From Syntrophaceae bacterium (GTDB taxonomy: Bacteria > Desulfobacterota > Syntrophia > Syntrophales > Smithellaceae), in assembly GCA_003139775.1 (NCBI GenBank), contig PLGI01000086.1, positions 1-36,707 on the forward strand: 36,707 nt of DNA, in the 5' to 3' direction. Positions 29,698 through 36,707 of this stretch are shown here, piece by piece. Position numbers and translations under genes: made by a program. Every line of letters begins with the position of its first letter. The first letter of the stretch is position 1. Under the pieces are notes generated by a model. That model was not told where the DNA came from, ran no database searches, and saw nothing but the letters and a program-made list of their open reading frames with translations.

Positions 29698-30047
29698 GGG
29701 GGCGTCACGGTTTCGACGGGGACATTTGAAGTTGTAGAAGCGTACCGAGGTTCCTACAGGCCTCGTTAAACAGGTAGGAAACATATAATCGCAGAAAACT
29801 ACGATTACGCTTTAGCCGCTTAGACGGCTAACGTTCTACCCGGTTCTCCTGTTGGTTGGGATAGAACGTCATTAAGACAGGATAGCCAAACTTCTTGCCT
29901 GGGGGAGGGCGGCGAATACTTACAGGATAGCACGGGGCGATCCGGCCTTAGGGAGCAAACCAGCGCGAAGGTTCTAAAACGAAGGCTACGTACGTAGAAG
30001 CTCCAGCGGAAGGTTTTCGGACGCGGGTTCGACTCCCGCCGCCTCCA
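29698..30047 (+). ncRNA. ssrA: Transfer-messenger RNA (tmRNA)
   Basis: Rescues stalled ribosomes and adds a degradation tag. The 5' end GGGGGCG (29698-29704) pairs with CGCCTCC (30040-30046), including the G3-U wobble needed for alanyl-tRNA synthetase. The T arm is CGGGTTCGACTCCCG. The conserved 5' segment CACGGTTTCGACGGGG is present. The tag frame begins at GCA 29791 and stops at TAG 29821-29823, encoding AENYDYALAA after the resume context TAATC. The CCA end is not encoded; the bases after the discriminator A are AAA. The 3' end is also the insertion point of the downstream mobile element. Confidence 0.96.
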
Positions 30048-30060
30048 AAAAAAGACAATC
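30035..30060 (+). mobile_element. Probable attL of the integrated element at the 3' end of ssrA
   Basis: The tRNA-like 3' end of ssrA is a known target of tyrosine recombinases, and a P4-type integrase gene begins 190 bases further on. The exact crossover cannot be fixed, because the matching attR lies outside the window. The left junction is placed around the terminal CCGCCGCCTCCA. Confidence 0.6.
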
Positions 30061-30093
30061 CAGTAAAATCCAAAGAAGTCCGAGGAAATCCAA

Positions 30094-30121
30094 AAACCCG
30101 TTAGAAATAGCGGGTTTTTTG
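30094..30121 (+). terminator. Intrinsic terminator after ssrA
   Basis: A stem AAACCCGTTA / TAGCGGGTTT with a GAAA loop is followed by TTTTTTG. It lies about 47 bases past the tmRNA end and probably on the element side of the att site. Confidence 0.85.
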
Positions 30122-30174
30122 TTGCTTTTAGTCCAAAGATGTGTTATAAGATTTTACATAAGCCGGTTGTTTTA

Positions 30175-30225
30175 GGTACCCAAATCAAGTAAAAAGGTAC
30201 CCAAAATATTTCGCGGGTACCCAAA
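30175..30225 (+). promoter_or_regulatory. Three phased direct repeats GGTACCCAAA upstream of the integrase
   Basis: Copies lie at 30175-30184, 30196-30205 and 30216-30225, spaced 21 and 20 bases, or two helical turns. The last copy touches the integrase ribosome binding site AAGGAGG (30225-30231). Likely arm-type integrase or excisionase sites, or an operator for integrase expression. Confidence 0.7.
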
Positions 30226-30238
30226 AGGAGGTATAACC

Positions 30239-31468
30239 ATGCCAAGGCGTATAATTCCATTGACGGATATGAAGGTTCAAAAAGTAAAACCAAAGGATAA
30301 GCCATTTTCATTATTTGATGGAGGTGGCTTATATCTTCTTATAACACCTTCCGGCGGCAAGTTATGGCGGTTTAAATATCGTTTTAATAATAAAGAAAAG
30401 AAACTTGCTTTTGGCTCGTACCCCGAGATCAGTCTTCTTGATGCGCGTCGAAGACGTGATGATGCTAGAAGGTTGCTGGCAAATAGTGTTGACCCGGGTG
30501 ATGTTCGCAAAGCTCAAAAACAGGCTAATATCCAAGAAACAGAAACCTTTGAGGTTATGGCCAGAGAGTGGCATGCTAGATTTATTTCAACATGGACAAT
30601 AGGACATGCAGAAACAATTATGAGCCGCTTGGAACGTGACCTTTTTCCATGGATTGGCAAACGTCCAATTGCAGCGATAAAAGCTCCAGAGTTGTTGGCT
30701 GTGTTACGGCGTGTTGAATCAAGAGGTGCTTTAGAATCCGCTCATCGTATAAGAACTATTTGTGGCCAGGTTTTTAGGTATGCAGTTGCAACCGGTCGTG
30801 CCGAACGTGATCCGGCAGCAGATTTAAAGGGCGCACTGCCACAACCCGCAGAAAAGCACATGGCGGCCATTACTGAACCTAAAAAAGTGGCGGAATTATT
30901 AAGAGCAATTGACAGTTATCAAGGCAGCTTTGTCGTTAAATATGCTCTGCAGCTTGCGCCTTTAGTTTTTGTCCGACCGGGCGAACTTCGTCATGCGGAA
31001 TGGGCTGAAATAGATTTTGAAAATGCACAATGGAACATTCCGGCTGGAAAAATGAAAATGAAAGAGCCGCACCTTGTACCATTATCAAGGCAAGCAATAG
31101 AGATATTGACGGAGCTTAAAGAATTGACAGGCGCAAGCCGCTATATATTCCCTTCTGGCCGTTCTTTTGATCGGCCAATGTCAAACAATGCTATTTTAGC
31201 AGCATTACGGCGTATGGGATATACAAAAGATGAAATGTCTGCGCATGGCTTCCGGGCAATGGCGCGAACAATGCTTGATGAAATTTTGCAGATTAGACCT
31301 GATTTTATTGAACATCAATTGGCACACGCAGTCAGAGACCCAAACGGCCGCGCTTATAATAGAACAGCGCATCTAAATGAAAGAATTAAAATGATGCAAA
31401 TATGGGCGGATTATCTTGACGGGTTAAGAGTCGGAGCCAAGGTGCTACAATTTAAGAAAACAACATGA
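30239..31468 (+). CDS. P4-type tyrosine integrase
   Basis: A site-specific recombinase that inserts and excises the element, here at ssrA. The N-terminal DUF4102-like arm-binding domain (about 1-90) includes KPFSLFDGGGLYLLITPSGGKLW and FGSYPEISLLDARRRRDDARRLL. A core-binding domain (about 100-185) follows. The catalytic domain has Arg246 (RPGELRHAEW), Lys274 region, His336 and Arg339 (HGFRAMART), His363 (HQLAHAVRD) and the nucleophile Tyr373 (AYNRTAHL). All key residues are present and length of 409 is full, so it should be active. ATG 30239 is behind AAGGAGG. The three GGTACCCAAA repeats directly upstream suggest self-regulation. Confidence 0.96.
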   Translation: MPRRIIPLTDMKVQKVKPKDKPFSLFDGGGLYLLITPSGGKLWRFKYRFNNKEKKLAFGSYPEISLLDARRRRDDARRLLANSVDPGDVRKAQKQANIQETETFEVMAREWHARFISTWTIGHAETIMSRLERDLFPWIGKRPIAAIKAPELLAVLRRVESRGALESAHRIRTICGQVFRYAVATGRAERDPAADLKGALPQPAEKHMAAITEPKKVAELLRAIDSYQGSFVVKYALQLAPLVFVRPGELRHAEWAEIDFENAQWNIPAGKMKMKEPHLVPLSRQAIEILTELKELTGASRYIFPSGRSFDRPMSNNAILAALRRMGYTKDEMSAHGFRAMARTMLDEILQIRPDFIEHQLAHAVRDPNGRAYNRTAHLNERIKMMQIWADYLDGLRVGAKVLQFKKTT

Positions 31469-31584: not shown

Positions 31585-31608
31585 GTTGGAACTTCTCCAA
31601 TCTTTTTT
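31585..31608 (+). terminator. Possible terminator downstream of the integrase
   Basis: A short stem TTGGA-ACTTC-TCCAA (31586-31600) is followed by TCTTTTTT. It overlaps the 3' end of the converging AlpA-like gene. The stem is weak. Confidence 0.4.
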
Positions 31609-31828
31609 AACGAGCACGTTCAATAAAATTGATGATGTCCTTTAGATGCCAGACGGCTGTTCGCTGACTTAGCTTTATAGGTTTGGGATAGCGCCCGGAT
31701 TTAATTCCCGCATACCATGCTGACCGTGATATGGGAATCATTGGAGGAATTTTGGGATGAGCCTTGGCGTCGCCAATGATCTGTTTCAACCTTAAAAAAC
31801 CAATTTCCGGCAAAGAATCCTGAGTCAT
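31607..31828 (-). CDS. AlpA-family transcriptional regulator / excisionase-like protein
   Basis: A 73-residue MerR-like winged helix-turn-helix protein. FLRLKQIIG, IPISRSAWYAGIKSGRYPKPIKLSQRTAVWHLKDIINFI is the AlpA pattern, with recognition helix near SRSAWYAGI and the wing at RTAVWHLKDI. AlpA proteins activate integrase or act as excisionases in P4-like islands. It is convergent with the integrase and has the same orientation as the XRE-type regulator upstream. Probably controls excision. An expected DNA target is the GGTACCCAAA cluster, but this is inference. Confidence 0.88.
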   Translation of the reverse strand: MTQDSLPEIGFLRLKQIIGDAKAHPKIPPMIPISRSAWYAGIKSGRYPKPIKLSQRTAVWHLKDIINFIERAR

Positions 31829-31851: not shown

Positions 31852-32649
31852 TTATTTTTCTTTTAGCATTTTTGATACTTTTTCTATAGCAATGTCCTTC
31901 GTTCGAATCTCATTAATAAACATGAGTTCATAGCGGGAAAGACTTTCTATTCCCATAGTCCGCTGGAGTTCGAGTTGAAAAATTTCAGCTTCGGTCGGTT
32001 CAAACAACTTCGTGAATGTGGTTTCTTCATCAATTAGATACTTAATGTCTGCTATTGAAAGCGAATTCCACTCGCGTATTTTGTCAAAAACATTCCTCGA
32101 TAATTCTTTTTGAGCAAAGGATATGACAGATTTATTTTCCTGAGATATCTTTGTCAATTTCACGATGGGGCTGGGATAATCAGCTGACAGATTAAAGATG
32201 TCTTTTTCTTTTTTCCGTCTAAACAGAAAAATATTATTATGATCATCCTTTATTAGGATTGCGTATATCAATGGCAATCCTATATTAGAAAATCTTTTTA
32301 ATTCAGGAAAAGGAGCGATAAGAGTAATCATACGGAGTTGTTTGTTGAGTTTCGATAATAAATATAATGGTTCGAGATTATCAAAGATAAGACCATCCGG
32401 CATAAACATTTTTATTAAAAGGCCGTTGCTTCTGAACGGATACAATGAAGTATCATCTATATACTCAGGATTTATATATAGCGCCCTGGCCATCATCTTT
32501 AAAGTTTCTTTGGAAAGACTTGCCTGTGCTTTTTCGAATTGCTGCAATGATTGATAAGTAATTTTCGCACTTGCCGAGACCTCAGGCTGAGTTTTTCCGG
32601 TCAATTCCCTAACTAATTTAAATAGCTTGTTGACTGCTAACTTATTCAT
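31852..32649 (-). CDS. XRE-type helix-turn-helix regulator with uncharacterised C-terminal domain
   Basis: A DNA-binding regulator of the mobile element. The N-terminal lambda-repressor-like HTH is at about residues 3-65 (KLVRELTGKTQPEVSASAKITYQSLQQFEKAQASLS). The remaining 200 residues have mixed alpha/beta character and match no domain I recognise; no Ser-Lys LexA-type protease pair is evident. The start is ATG 32649, with AAGGA five bases upstream; an in-frame TTG at 32664 is less likely. Length is 265. It is divergent from the small HTH gene at 32767, and the shared 117-base gap contains several palindromes. Probably the switch controlling transfer genes. Confidence 0.8.
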   Translation of the reverse strand: MNKLAVNKLFKLVRELTGKTQPEVSASAKITYQSLQQFEKAQASLSKETLKMMARALYINPEYIDDTSLYPFRSNGLLIKMFMPDGLIFDNLEPLYLLSKLNKQLRMITLIAPFPELKRFSNIGLPLIYAILIKDDHNNIFLFRRKKEKDIFNLSADYPSPIVKLTKISQENKSVISFAQKELSRNVFDKIREWNSLSIADIKYLIDEETTFTKLFEPTEAEIFQLELQRTMGIESLSRYELMFINEIRTKDIAIEKVSKMLKEK

Positions 32650-32666
32650 AATATTCCTTGACACAA

Positions 32667-33822: not shown

Positions 33823-35178
33823 ATGCAGACTAAAAGTTCGACCGGAAAATCCAACATTATGGGCAGGCTCGTTGACGAAATGGTTACAAACGTATCCGGC
33901 CAGTTTCGTGGAGTCGACTCTCCCTCTGAACACACAAAAGAACAGACAGAGAAACAGACACTCGGAAGAACAGACGGAAGGACAGACAAAAGAACAGACA
34001 GTCGGACAGACAGTCAGTCAGTCGGACAGTCAAACAGACACACAGAAGATCACACAGAAGGGCACACAGAAGAACAGACAGTCAAACAGGTAAAAGGACA
34101 CACAGAAGGACACACAGAAGGACAGTCTGCAAAACGGGATTCCTCCTCAACTCACGTTTTGACTACGTTGGACAGGTCAGATCCTCCTTTTGCTCATTTT
34201 ACGGAAAGACAAAGCGCCGTCCTGGCTTTTATGATCCATAGCAAGGATAAGTATATTACACTTGATTATATTGCTTATGCCACTGGCCTGACATTTGCCT
34301 CAGTCCGCACTGCCATCAGGGCTCTTCGCCAATACAACTGCGTTTTAAATACAGGCCGTCTCCGGCATCTCAATACACAATATCTTTATTACGAACTCGA
34401 CGAGATTCGCTGTGAACAATTTTGGAAAGAAAAAGGTATTTTCTATGATTTCAGCAGACCGTTGAAATGGGACAAGAATGGTATTAATCGGTCTGCGGAC
34501 ACAAAATCCATACAGACAAAAGGACACACAGAAGGACAGTCAGAAGGACACACAGAAGAACAGACACTCGGTCGGACAGACAGTCGGACAGACATATATA
34601 GTAGTAGTATTAGTATATATAATAATAAACTACTACTAACTAAAGTCGCAGAAATTTTTGCAACGCATCCGGATTTTGCATTTTGGATAGAAGAAAAGCT
34701 TAAGCCTGATACCGTGCTCAGATGGATAGAGGAATTCAGCGACGTTCCGATAAAAGTTGAGGATATGCTGCTGTATCTTTCCCGCTGCAGTTACGATCTG
34801 ACAACACTAAACAAAAAGGCATCCCTTAAAAACACGCCGGTAAACTATTTTTACGGCTGTATCAAACGGAACAAAACATATTTGCCCCCGCACGGGTTTA
34901 AAACTCTCGAAGAAAGAATTTTGGAAGATAAACGCAAGATCGTGGAGGAAATGGAGAACAGGGTTCGTGAGCTCCAGGAATTGGAAGAAAGAGAGAAACA
35001 GGCAGAGATCGAAATTAGATTCCGCGAAATGATGGGCGAAGAAACCTGTGAGCTCTACAGGGCATGCTTAAATAATATTCCGTCTCTGTTCAGAGACAGT
35101 GATCGTTCCGGACAGGGATTCAAAACCGCCATGAAACAAGCTTTTATGAAAATCCCAATAATTGATCATAAAAATTAA
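33823..35178 (+). CDS. Repeat-bearing winged-helix-like protein (putative replication or partition protein)
   Basis: A 451-residue protein I cannot assign to a named family. Residues 37-102 are 17 perfect-phase tetrapeptides of the form [H/Q/R]-[T/S]-x-x (for example HTEG, RTDS). Residues 115-215 contain a helix-turn-helix-like segment (FTERQSAVLAFMIHSKDK, LDYIAYATGLTFASVRTAIRALRQYNCVLNTGRL). Residues 231-257 are seven further tetrapeptides, followed by a Ser/Ile-rich stretch encoded by AT-rich DNA. The C-terminal part (about 270-451) has a long charged helix (about 361-405, coiled coil likely). The order parA-this gene-relaxase suggests replication initiation or partition. The DNA repeats inside the gene may be binding sites. 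ATG 33823 follows AAGGAAAAGC. Confidence 0.6.
   Translation: MQTKSSTGKSNIMGRLVDEMVTNVSGQFRGVDSPSEHTKEQTEKQTLGRTDGRTDKRTDSRTDSQSVGQSNRHTEDHTEGHTEEQTVKQVKGHTEGHTEGQSAKRDSSSTHVLTTLDRSDPPFAHFTERQSAVLAFMIHSKDKYITLDYIAYATGLTFASVRTAIRALRQYNCVLNTGRLRHLNTQYLYYELDEIRCEQFWKEKGIFYDFSRPLKWDKNGINRSADTKSIQTKGHTEGQSEGHTEEQTLGRTDSRTDIYSSSISIYNNKLLLTKVAEIFATHPDFAFWIEEKLKPDTVLRWIEEFSDVPIKVEDMLLYLSRCSYDLTTLNKKASLKNTPVNYFYGCIKRNKTYLPPHGFKTLEERILEDKRKIVEEMENRVRELQELEEREKQAEIEIRFREMMGEETCELYRACLNNIPSLFRDSDRSGQGFKTAMKQAFMKIPIIDHKN
33931..34128 (+). repeat. Array 1 of a 12-bp periodic repeat inside the coding sequence
   Basis: Seventeen units of exactly 12 bases, typically CACACAGAAGGA or AGAACAGACAGT. They run without indels from the HTKE unit (residue 37) to the end of the QS unit (residue 102). 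The strong base-level similarity goes beyond the need to keep amino acids, so it may be a protein-binding array. Confidence 0.85.
34510..34596 (+). repeat. Array 2 of the same 12-bp repeat
   Basis: About seven further units (ACAGACAAAAGG, ACACAGAAGGAC and similar) in the same reading frame, 380 bases from array 1. The pattern is nearly identical to array 1. Confidence 0.85.
34594..34641 (+). other. AT-rich block with TAGTAGTAG/CTACTACTA arms directly after array 2
   Basis: Almost pure A/T with scattered G/C: TATATATAGTAGTAGTATTA then GTATATATAATAATAAAC. The arms TAGTAGTA and TACTACTA can pair. Its position next to repeat units fits a DNA-unwinding element, although it also encodes IYSSSISIYNN of the protein. 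Confidence 0.55.
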
Positions 35179-35435: not shown

Positions 35436-36707
35436 ATGATGGGTCCGGTGTCTCAATCTGCAACAGCAGCGAGTAAATATTATTACGAAAAAGATCCCCT
35501 TTGTGAAAAAAATAACAGCAGGTGGCTGGGCGGGGGTTTAGAAGCTATCGGCTTGGAGACAGGCGCTACTGTCTTGAAGGATGATTTTAATAATATTATT
35601 AACGGAAATGATTTAAGCGGCGGGAAGGTCGTTCAGGATACTTATACCGCGGCAGGGCGAGCAGAACATCGTGCCGGTGTTGATTTTGTTTTTTCCGATC
35701 CCAAGAGCGTTTCCATCATGGAACATCTTGCCGGAGATGAAAGAATCAAGGCCGCCAGATCAGCCGCTATTGCAGATGTCGTCAAGCATATTGATGATAA
35801 TTACATCGCCTACCGCGAAACAGTAAACTACCAGGTAAATTTTGTCCATGTTCAGGGAAGGGGTATTTTTTCCGCATATGAACATTCAACCAGCCGCGAA
35901 AACGATCCTAATTCCCATACTCATGTTCTGATATGCAATATGGTGCAACGCGATGACGGTTCCTACAGGGCTTTGTACAATGATGAAATATTCAAAAATC
36001 AAAAAGAGATAACTGCCGTCTATAACGCCGGTATGGCTAAAGGCTTATCGGAGCTTGGTTATGCAATAGAAATCAAACCAAACGGATTATACGAGGTAGC
36101 AGGGGTACCCAAAGAGCTGATTGACACGTTTTCCAAGAGAACGGCCAATATCAAACAGGCTGAAGCTGAATTTTTGGATAACAACAATGTCCTGGAAACC
36201 AATCCCAAAATACAGGTAATTGCGACTCTGGAAACCAGGCCGGAAAAATCAGACTTAACAAAAGAATTTCTATTAGATTCCTGGAATAAGCAAGCCTCCG
36301 ATATCGGTTATTCTCCGGATAAATTGATGTCTCTGGTTACAGCAGCGTTTAATAATAAAGTTGTAAATGATATTTCCGTAAACAGCGTCATTCGTCATGT
36401 TGTCAATGATCTTACCTCCACCGAATCTACGTTTACAACTTCTGATTTAATTAAGCACAGTCTGGCTCTTTCAATGGGTAAATATAACAAAAATGACATC
36501 GTAAATGAGATCGATAAAAATATGACCGGGGATAAACTTTTTACCGAAATAGCGCCTGGAATCTTCAGCACGGACAAAATGATCGAGACGGAAAAAAATA
36601 TATTACGGATGTTGGAATCAGGAAAAGAGAAGGTGAATCCCTTAATGAATAAAGAGGAAGCGGAAAAGTTTATCATCAATTTTGAAAATAATAATCAAAA
36701 TATCGTA
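35436..36707 (+). CDS. MobF-family (TrwC/TraI) conjugative relaxase, cut by window edge
   Basis: Nicks oriT and covalently holds the transferred DNA strand. The open frame runs from ATG 35436 to the last base of the window without a stop (424 residues seen). Catalytic tyrosines sit near residues 15-17 (SKYYYEKD). GVDFVFSDPKSVS is the family motif (Asp83). The metal-binding histidines are His150, His161 and His163 in EHSTSRENDPNSHTHVL, the same spacing I recall for TrwC. NMVQRDDGSYRALYND and GLYEVAGVPKELIDTFSKRT also match. A C-terminal helicase domain, typical of MobF proteins of about 900-1700 residues, would begin beyond the visible part. The start codon has an alternative at ATG 35439. Confidence 0.93.
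   Translation, partial: MMGPVSQSATAASKYYYEKDPLCEKNNSRWLGGGLEAIGLETGATVLKDDFNNIINGNDLSGGKVVQDTYTAAGRAEHRAGVDFVFSDPKSVSIMEHLAGDERIKAARSAAIADVVKHIDDNYIAYRETVNYQVNFVHVQGRGIFSAYEHSTSRENDPNSHTHVLICNMVQRDDGSYRALYNDEIFKNQKEITAVYNAGMAKGLSELGYAIEIKPNGLYEVAGVPKELIDTFSKRTANIKQAEAEFLDNNNVLETNPKIQVIATLETRPEKSDLTKEFLLDSWNKQASDIGYSPDKLMSLVTAAFNNKVVNDISVNSVIRHVVNDLTSTESTFTTSDLIKHSLALSMGKYNKNDIVNEIDKNMTGDKLFTEIAPGIFSTDKMIETEKNILRMLESGKEKVNPLMNKEEAEKFIINFENNNQNIV

Follow-up and report, generated by a model that had tools for sequence, protein, structure and literature searches.

Probable arm-type sites of a P4/SXT-like integrase in the leader of its own gene, and a candidate code relating them to its arm domain

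The leader of a tyrosine integrase gene (int) from a Syntrophaceae mobile element carries three copies of the short repeat GGTACCCAAA. We consider it very likely that these are the arm-type sites of the P4/SXT-like integrase encoded just downstream, placed at attL between promoter and Shine-Dalgarno sequence and doubling as an operator. From sequence comparisons we infer that the integrase binds the repeats, represses itself through them and uses them in recombination. The array itself is beyond chance, and among relatives the sequence of the repeat follows the N-terminal arm domain of the integrase, not its catalytic part; it appears to be largely readable from a few integrase amino acids. 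Both the identity of the integrase that assembles on an element and the direction of recombination depend on arm-type sites, which are usually mapped element by element. If the relation described here is true, each integrase carries its own target sites, and the arm-site specificity of many mobile elements could be predicted from sequence.

The repeats in the integrase leader

The window analysed here is a stretch of 36,707 nucleotides, the entire contig C3 of its source genome, in which the mobile element begins at the 3' end of the tmRNA gene (Table 1). The tmRNA gene and int are co-directional, and the int leader with its promoter (the latter identified by eye) lies inside attL. A good -35 box was not seen in the promoter region, and a consensus promoter scan found no promoter there. 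The integrase contains an Arm-DNA-bind_3 domain (Pfam, 90 bits at a cut-off of 27) with Ser24, Arg44, Lys46, Glu53 and Lys55 at the positions that matter below.

Table 1. Features at the start of the element and in the int leader (window coordinates)
Feature	Position	Strand	Basis
tmRNA (ssrA) gene; 3' end is the integration site	29698..30047	+	ARAGORN; Rfam RF00023, 183.9 bits
attL core GTTCGACTCCCGCCGCC, common to the probable right end C133:972-988	30027..30043	+	deduced from the repeat
RTCC direct repeats at exact 10-bp spacing (30058, 30068, 30078, 30088)	30057..30092	+	candidate directionality-factor sites, putative role
Intrinsic terminator between tmRNA and int, kept in relatives	30092..30119	+	seen in relatives' leaders too
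Probable int promoter, extended -10 (TGT TATAAG)	30142..30150	+	by eye; similar in relatives (TGCTATAAG)
Probable arm-type site 1 (TTTAGGTACCCAAA), inverted relative to sites 2 and 3	30171..30184	-	orientation from relatives
Probable arm-type site 2 (GGTACCCAAA)	30196..30205	+	sequence
Probable arm-type site 3 (GGTACCCAAA), shares first Shine-Dalgarno base	30216..30225	+	sequence
int Shine-Dalgarno AAGGAGG	30225..30231	+	sequence
Tyrosine integrase: Arm-DNA-bind_3 (residues 8-93), Phage_int_M, Phage_integrase	30239..31468	+	Pfam
AlpA-like protein, candidate directionality factor	31607..31828	-	Pfam PF05930, 27.4 bits (cut-off 21); putative role
HTH protein	31852-32664		

An earlier note on this DNA had described three repeats spaced by 21 and then 20 bp, the last touching the ribosome-binding site, and all of this was found exactly where it had been placed: the exact copies are 30175-30184 and sites 2 and 3 of Table 1, and base 30225 is at once the last base of the third copy and the first A of AAGGAGG, ahead of the int ATG at 30239. 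A 10-mer present three times was obtained in one of 5000 dinucleotide shuffles of the 120-nt leader (30130-30249). In the rest of the window, the only other 10-mer with at least three different letters to occur three times within 120 nt falls in a repetitive ORF at about 33.8-34.2 kb. This ORF (33823-35178, 451 amino acids) is built of runs of short TEGQ/TDRT-like repeats and matched no Pfam family and at most a sub-threshold NCBIfam entry.

The fuller form of copy 1, TTTAGGTACCCAAA, is near-palindromic, with its reverse-strand match at 30171-30180, and relatives with non-palindromic repeats place copy 1 in inverted orientation to copies 2 and 3. The impression of three direct repeats is an accident, because GGTACC is its own reverse complement. 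A fourth exact GGTACCCAAA at 36104-36113 was rejected as an attachment site: it lies within a TrwC/MobF relaxase ORF, and a near-identical stretch recurs on contig C165, so it is coding sequence.

In the mechanism we propose, the promoter in the leader gives rise to integrase, which would then bind to sites 1-3, immediately downstream of where transcription probably starts; as the protein accumulates, it would occupy the leader and block transcription of its own gene. In excision and integration, these arm contacts would also link to the core and to the site pair just inside attR, and the AlpA-like protein may act on the RTCC array. A bound protein had been proposed to block either translation or transcription of the integrase; we retain transcription and drop translation, as a protein sitting on the DNA would interfere with transcribing the leader.

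Arrays beside related integrases and the arm domain that would read them

The search covered 60 genomes from the same order and lower ranks, counting that of the window, and 26 of them had an integrase match. Two sets of loci, with 20 of 30 kept in the first (the others were fragments or distant) and 76 of 80 in the second (L059 and L066 were duplicates, L121 had no leader, L130 was incomplete), gave 96 leaders that span Syntrophaceae, Geobacteraceae, Beta- and Gammaproteobacteria, Legionella, Nitrospirae, Acidobacteria, Chlorobiaceae and others. A site could be curated in 88 of them; the remaining eight had no curated site or a two-gene frame. The viral test set comprised the 57 of 80 viral-contig loci with enough leader, less 9 without an array and 12 redundant ones, leaving 36.

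An array (score of at least 2.6) was found just upstream of int in 81 of the 96 leaders as against 60 of 1440 shuffles (4.2%). No clear array was seen in 15 of the 96 leaders and in 9 of the 57 viral ones, and more than 100 relatives bear their own version. The proposal to look for the same repeat upstream of related integrases thus held for the array and not for its exact sequence, which is present in just 9 of the 88 relatives with a curated site. Close relatives share a common order (tRNA or tmRNA 3' end, RTCC-rich stretch, terminator, TATAAG resembling a -10 box, three repeats, Shine-Dalgarno sequence, int) with differing repeats: GGTACCCAAA; TATACCCAAA or TACACCCAAA; ATACCCCCA; AAGCCCCCA; and others. 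The copies inside one such leader change in concert. The suggestion that the repeats are arm-type sites also used for self-repression gains computational support from the frequency of arrays, from the covariation described below and from the annotation of phage P4.

Two unusual arrangements were seen. At L298 (G054:C106, about 2050-2450) an intact leader and integrase are directly preceded by a truncated integrase start that has an array too, a tandem duplicate of leader and arm domain. In a two-gene variant (L065, whose protein is identical in L295, L088, L090, L122, L176, L293, L294, L296 and L297, and probably also L300, G295:C74), the gene for a protein of about 150 amino acids with an Arm-DNA-bind_3 domain (Pfam was run on two) stands immediately ahead of int, and the two genes have one leader in common; the visible arrays precede the first of them. 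The protein's short C-terminal segment reads, by eye, approximately DGxLxIxxGxxxLxLTxxExxxLRxFL, and a dedicated integrase regulator is one possible role for it.

The integrases have a mosaic build. Outside the arm domain L013 and L035 share 96% identity, inside it 87%, and their sites are TACACCC and GGTACCC, respectively; L037 (GGTACCC) and L023, whose array is of another type and placed before a standalone gene, are 93% identical outside and 71% inside. Across 88 leaders, site similarity correlated with identity of the arm domain (r 0.335) as against 0.068 for the core-binding and 0.095 for the catalytic domain. With core-binding and catalytic identity fixed, the partial r of the arm domain (88 of the 96 leaders) was 0.324, the maximum of 1000 permutations being 0.186; that of catalytic identity was -0.029.

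When alignment columns were ranked by how well they follow the A/G split of the site (AGC scored as G, GTACC types as A), column 55 was the strongest, followed by 34, 36, 24 and 19. The arm domain makes up 95 of 400 columns and supplied 11, 10, 14 and 17 of the 20 best for four labels; counting against it, the 20 best also held 9, 10, 6 and 3 non-arm columns, and for C-run length the N-terminal columns 14 and 11 ranked first and third.

Three-stranded arm domains insert their sheet into the major groove. Residues 1-99 were modelled with AlphaFold2 from 41 sequences (pLDDT 93.7), giving strands at 23-28, 31-35, 41-49 and 52-60. Of the covarying positions, 24, 34, 44/46 and 53/55 fall within strands of this model and 36 directly follows one; the leading columns alternate (34/36, 44/46, 53/55) as would be expected of one face of a sheet. 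In Foldseek the model matched 3jtz, 3ju0 and 3rmp with E-values of 3e-7 or better, and the next DNA-binding match, an AP2 domain at E 0.3, was not significant. The first three are arm domains of HPI and HAI7 integrases, with the same fold as the arm domain of the window's integrase and 50-52% identical to it in sequence; 3rmp, compared by title, is 'Structural basis for the recognition of attP substrates by P4-like integrases'. Ten face columns gave 0.427 in-sample, with 0 of 100 random sets as good, and on the 36 unseen viral loci their partial r of 0.281 lay above all 2000 permutations. Out of sample, 40 of 500 random ten-column arm sets equalled them and the remaining arm columns carried more (0.445), so the claim for the face columns rests mainly on the in-sample test and on single-residue rules.

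Arg55 went with TGC in 22 of 22 cases, Lys55 with GTACC (11) or AGC (5) in 16 of 16, and Ala, Gly, Leu, Met, Thr or Val55 with TAC, TATAC or TACAC in 47 of 47; Gln55 was mixed (two TGC, one TAC). With an automatic register (11 loci without array and 8 unaligned omitted, 11 unclassified), Arg55 had 20 TGC and no TAC, and other residues 3 TGC and 43 TAC. Asp46 with Arg53 coincided with TACCG, TACCT or TACTG sites in the same 11 of 114. Among the unseen viral loci, the T-R-C rule classified 26 of 36, leaving 10 unclassified, and the residue-55 rule held in 25 of the 26: Arg55 predicted TGC in 8 of 8 and other residues TAC in 17 of 18, L213 being the exception. Asp46/Arg53 went with TACCG in 5 of 5, a sixth locus (L192) having no array, and Lys46/Glu53 with CCC or CTC in all 16 that could be read, two being unread. 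The unclassified loci include misfits: L194 (Arg55, Phe44) has TTCCCCC, and L139 combines Lys55 with Arg44, yet carries AAGGCCCC.

Taken together, we lean towards a readable residue-to-base code for Arm-DNA-bind_3, with arm domain and leader sites swapping as one specificity module while the catalytic part stays. In such a code the beta-sheet of the arm domain would read each site, residues 44 and 55 reading its 5' end (T-R-C or equivalent) and residues 46, 53 and 24 its C-rich part. Arg55 would call for T-G-C, an aliphatic or small residue 55 for T-A-C, Lys55 with Arg44 for GTACC and Lys55 with His, Tyr or Asn44 for AGC; Lys/Glu at 46/53 would call for CCC, Asp/Arg for CG, CT or TG, and Ser/Gln, from few cases, for CAA. 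By eye, the phages S1 (Leu55; ATACCCC) and AchV4 (Asn44, Ala46, Gln53, Lys55; AGCCAACA) fit, and YeP4 and DinoHI were not interpretable with the code. Literature searches, mostly in papers readable without subscription, found no report of such a code or of its co-inheritance with the repeats. Should the relation hold at the bench, sequence could suffice to give the arm sites of genomic islands, integrative elements and prophages that have this domain, the search for right ends would be easier, and one could predict whether co-resident elements are independent.

Right ends of the elements and comparison with known systems

Searches for the right end of the window's element by two routes were given up. 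The 22-nt end of the tmRNA gene had a single occurrence in the genome with up to 3 mismatches allowed, and none of the 7 genome matches to exact GGTACCCAAA marked a second attachment site. A tandem-pair pattern, which found 14 pairs in 9 of 16 genomes compared with 1 for the reversed pattern, located a probable attR on contig C133. The repeat had been expected beside the right attachment site as well; this was not borne out in exact form, and the probable right end carries TTTGGGGATATTTTTGGGGGTATG, a TTTGGGG-type pair at the expected place, instead of GGTACC.

Further right ends came from a direct-repeat scan (31 stretches; 10 elements accepted with an arm pair inside the repeated core) and from the pattern search, which gave five more, tied to their integrase by eye through the core (that of L020 is imperfect). 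The weaker of the ten scan assignments are L092, with a core of 12 nt, L070 and L111, identified via a tandem leader, and L134, just 1.6 kb away from the start of int. Left out of the counts were L279, L286, L287 and L289-L292, which have no integrase tie, and G063b, which had a repeated core but an integrase outside the data set.

For TAC- and TGC-type elements, 19 of 20 attR copies share the site class of the leader (10 elements, some assignments being weak). With Arg55 (3 elements) there were five TGC copies and one TAC, and with other residues (7 elements) TAC in 14 of 14, an agreement with residue 55 at p 0.0004 when copies are taken as independent and GGTACC-type elements are omitted. 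Such copies are found at distances of 1.6-53 kb from the start of int, or on a different contig. The GGTACC-type elements with a located right end (that of the window, its G014 relative, L018, L022 and L037) behaved differently: 0 of 10 copies was GGTACC, two of the elements, with the near-identical attR pairs of the window and G014, being near-identical. Their pairs are TTTGGGG-type, with the readings GTACCCCC, ATACCCCC, TGCCCCC, TATCCCC and GACCCC. This may mean that the Lys55 domain accepts two forms, one short (GGTACCCAAA) and one long (NNACCCCCAAA), or that the leader triplet of this subtype serves mainly as an operator. One copy of each form occurs at the attR of L013, a TACACCC-type element, which favours a domain that accepts both.

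On C133 (L283, 895-1160) the probable right end is followed by a scar, a leader with terminator and TACCCGC-type array and with no integrase seen. In the window's genome, C9:66444 (L289) and C57:961 (L292) hold near-identical tandem arm-like pairs, TTTGGGGGTATGTTTGGTGGTA, after which no tRNA core was recognised by eye. Leader-like sequence stands right after the attR of a first element at G031:C45 (L285), and also around L070 and L111, which suggests tandem insertions at one attachment site.

Phage P4 offers a close annotated parallel. Its Int has the same arm domain as the window's integrase, and both have arm repeats in the int leader. Six features of the P4 record (NC_001609) bear the label 'attP arm sequence repeat', and each is TGCCCCC-type. 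A tandem pair precedes int, an inverted copy overlaps the ATG at the annotated int start, another copy falls inside int, and a further tandem pair, spaced by 12 bp, lies beyond the core; leader and far copies are annotated alike. P4 Int reads KKEDRLAFG, which by eye puts Arg at the place of residue 55 and fits TGCCCCC. The sites of the window differ: GGTACCCAAA is short and palindromic, its one inverted and two direct copies are 20-21 bp apart and all precede the Shine-Dalgarno sequence, and the attR pair differs in sequence from the leader sites.

An unlikely alternative is that the integrase binds the leader triplet solely as an operator and that recombination of the GGTACC subtype uses other arm sites. 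It would account for the TTTGGGG-like attR pairs in 5 of 5 such elements and for the two-gene variants, in which the array precedes the first arm-domain gene and not int. It is opposed by the shared site class of leader and attR in TAC and TGC types and by P4, where copies in both places are annotated as attP arm repeats.

Arm-type sites that also serve as operator would make the window a variant of a known arrangement, an int gene autoregulated at attL. According to PMC2951348, KplE1 (CPS-53) IntS represses its own gene, the arm sites overlap its promoter within attL, and the leader holds arm sites and sites of the recombination directionality factor (RDF), reported as GTTCG/GATCG/GTCCG. Single arm-site mutations did not derepress intS there, and P'1 was inseparable from the promoter. 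The same paper predicts autoregulation of int genes overlapping attL in 61.5% of 1273 tRNA-associated cases. By eye, E. coli IntS has Ile at the place of residue 55 and a leader with TTTTACCCA/GGGTAAAA, which agrees with the TAAA arm motif reported in that paper. The window differs from KplE1 in the sequence of its sites, in its RTCC(A/G) every 10 bp, and in its insertion at ssrA as opposed to argW.

Other regulators, RNA structure and linkage

It is improbable that the repeats are the operator of another regulator of the element, be it the AlpA-like or the HTH protein. Nothing seen here points to the AlpA-like protein as their ligand. Directionality factors can repress int, as TorI does in PMC2951348 and Vis in P4, where int is also self-repressed (both as cited in PMC7286903). 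The repeat sequence, however, tracks the arm residues of the integrase, and the RTCC array suits a directionality factor better; the TorI sites in the PMC2951348 text include GTCCG. Across 93 leaders, RTCC pairs numbered 82 at 10 bp, 49 at 20 bp and 23 at 30 bp, compared with 1.8, 1.6 and 1.3 in shuffles, and the array was found across arm-site types. We regard it as a candidate set of sites for an AlpA/Vis/TorI-type recombination directionality factor, and it looks a better candidate than the three repeats for the sites of the AlpA-like protein, for which no NCBIfam match was found. The window has an additional RTCC at 30131.

Action in the mRNA, with site 1 forming a hairpin with site 2 or 3 that controls translation, is most improbable: site 1 is complementary to sites 2 and 3 and the predicted fold pairs sites 1 and 2, but the fold energy is ordinary (z -1.37, with 18 of 200 shuffles folding at least as well), the attR copies are tandem and direct and so cannot form the hairpin, pairing in RNA leaves the link to the arm residues without an explanation, and the tmRNA is the sole Rfam family to reach threshold. 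On the same z-score and the lack of an Rfam leader family at threshold, a cis-regulatory RNA leader was rejected.

Linkage had to be considered because the leader and the arm-coding DNA adjoin: the two could recombine as a block, and the covariation would then be hitchhiking without binding. In a tree built from the integrase outside its arm domain (114 rows, 88 with both traits, with only the 26 classified viral loci included), Arg55 changes 26 times and site class 27 times, as a block swap would give, and a block swap would also suit the mosaic integrases and the equal signal that arm columns other than the face ones carry out of sample. On supported branches, seven independent pairs had Arg55 and site changing together in 6.9-7.0 (mean of 200 pairings; median p 0.016) and never apart, and all branches offered 26-27 pairs; Asp46/Arg53 had three independent pairs on supported branches (p 0.25) and nine on all. 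We judge hitchhiking very unlikely. The attR copies far from int or on other contigs follow the same residue-55 rule, the best columns for the A/G split are 55, 34 and 36 and not those nearest the leader, and a pairing of arginine with guanine is chemically sensible. Where a standalone gene parts leader and int (L090 and L122, by eye), Arg55 is still found with TGC.
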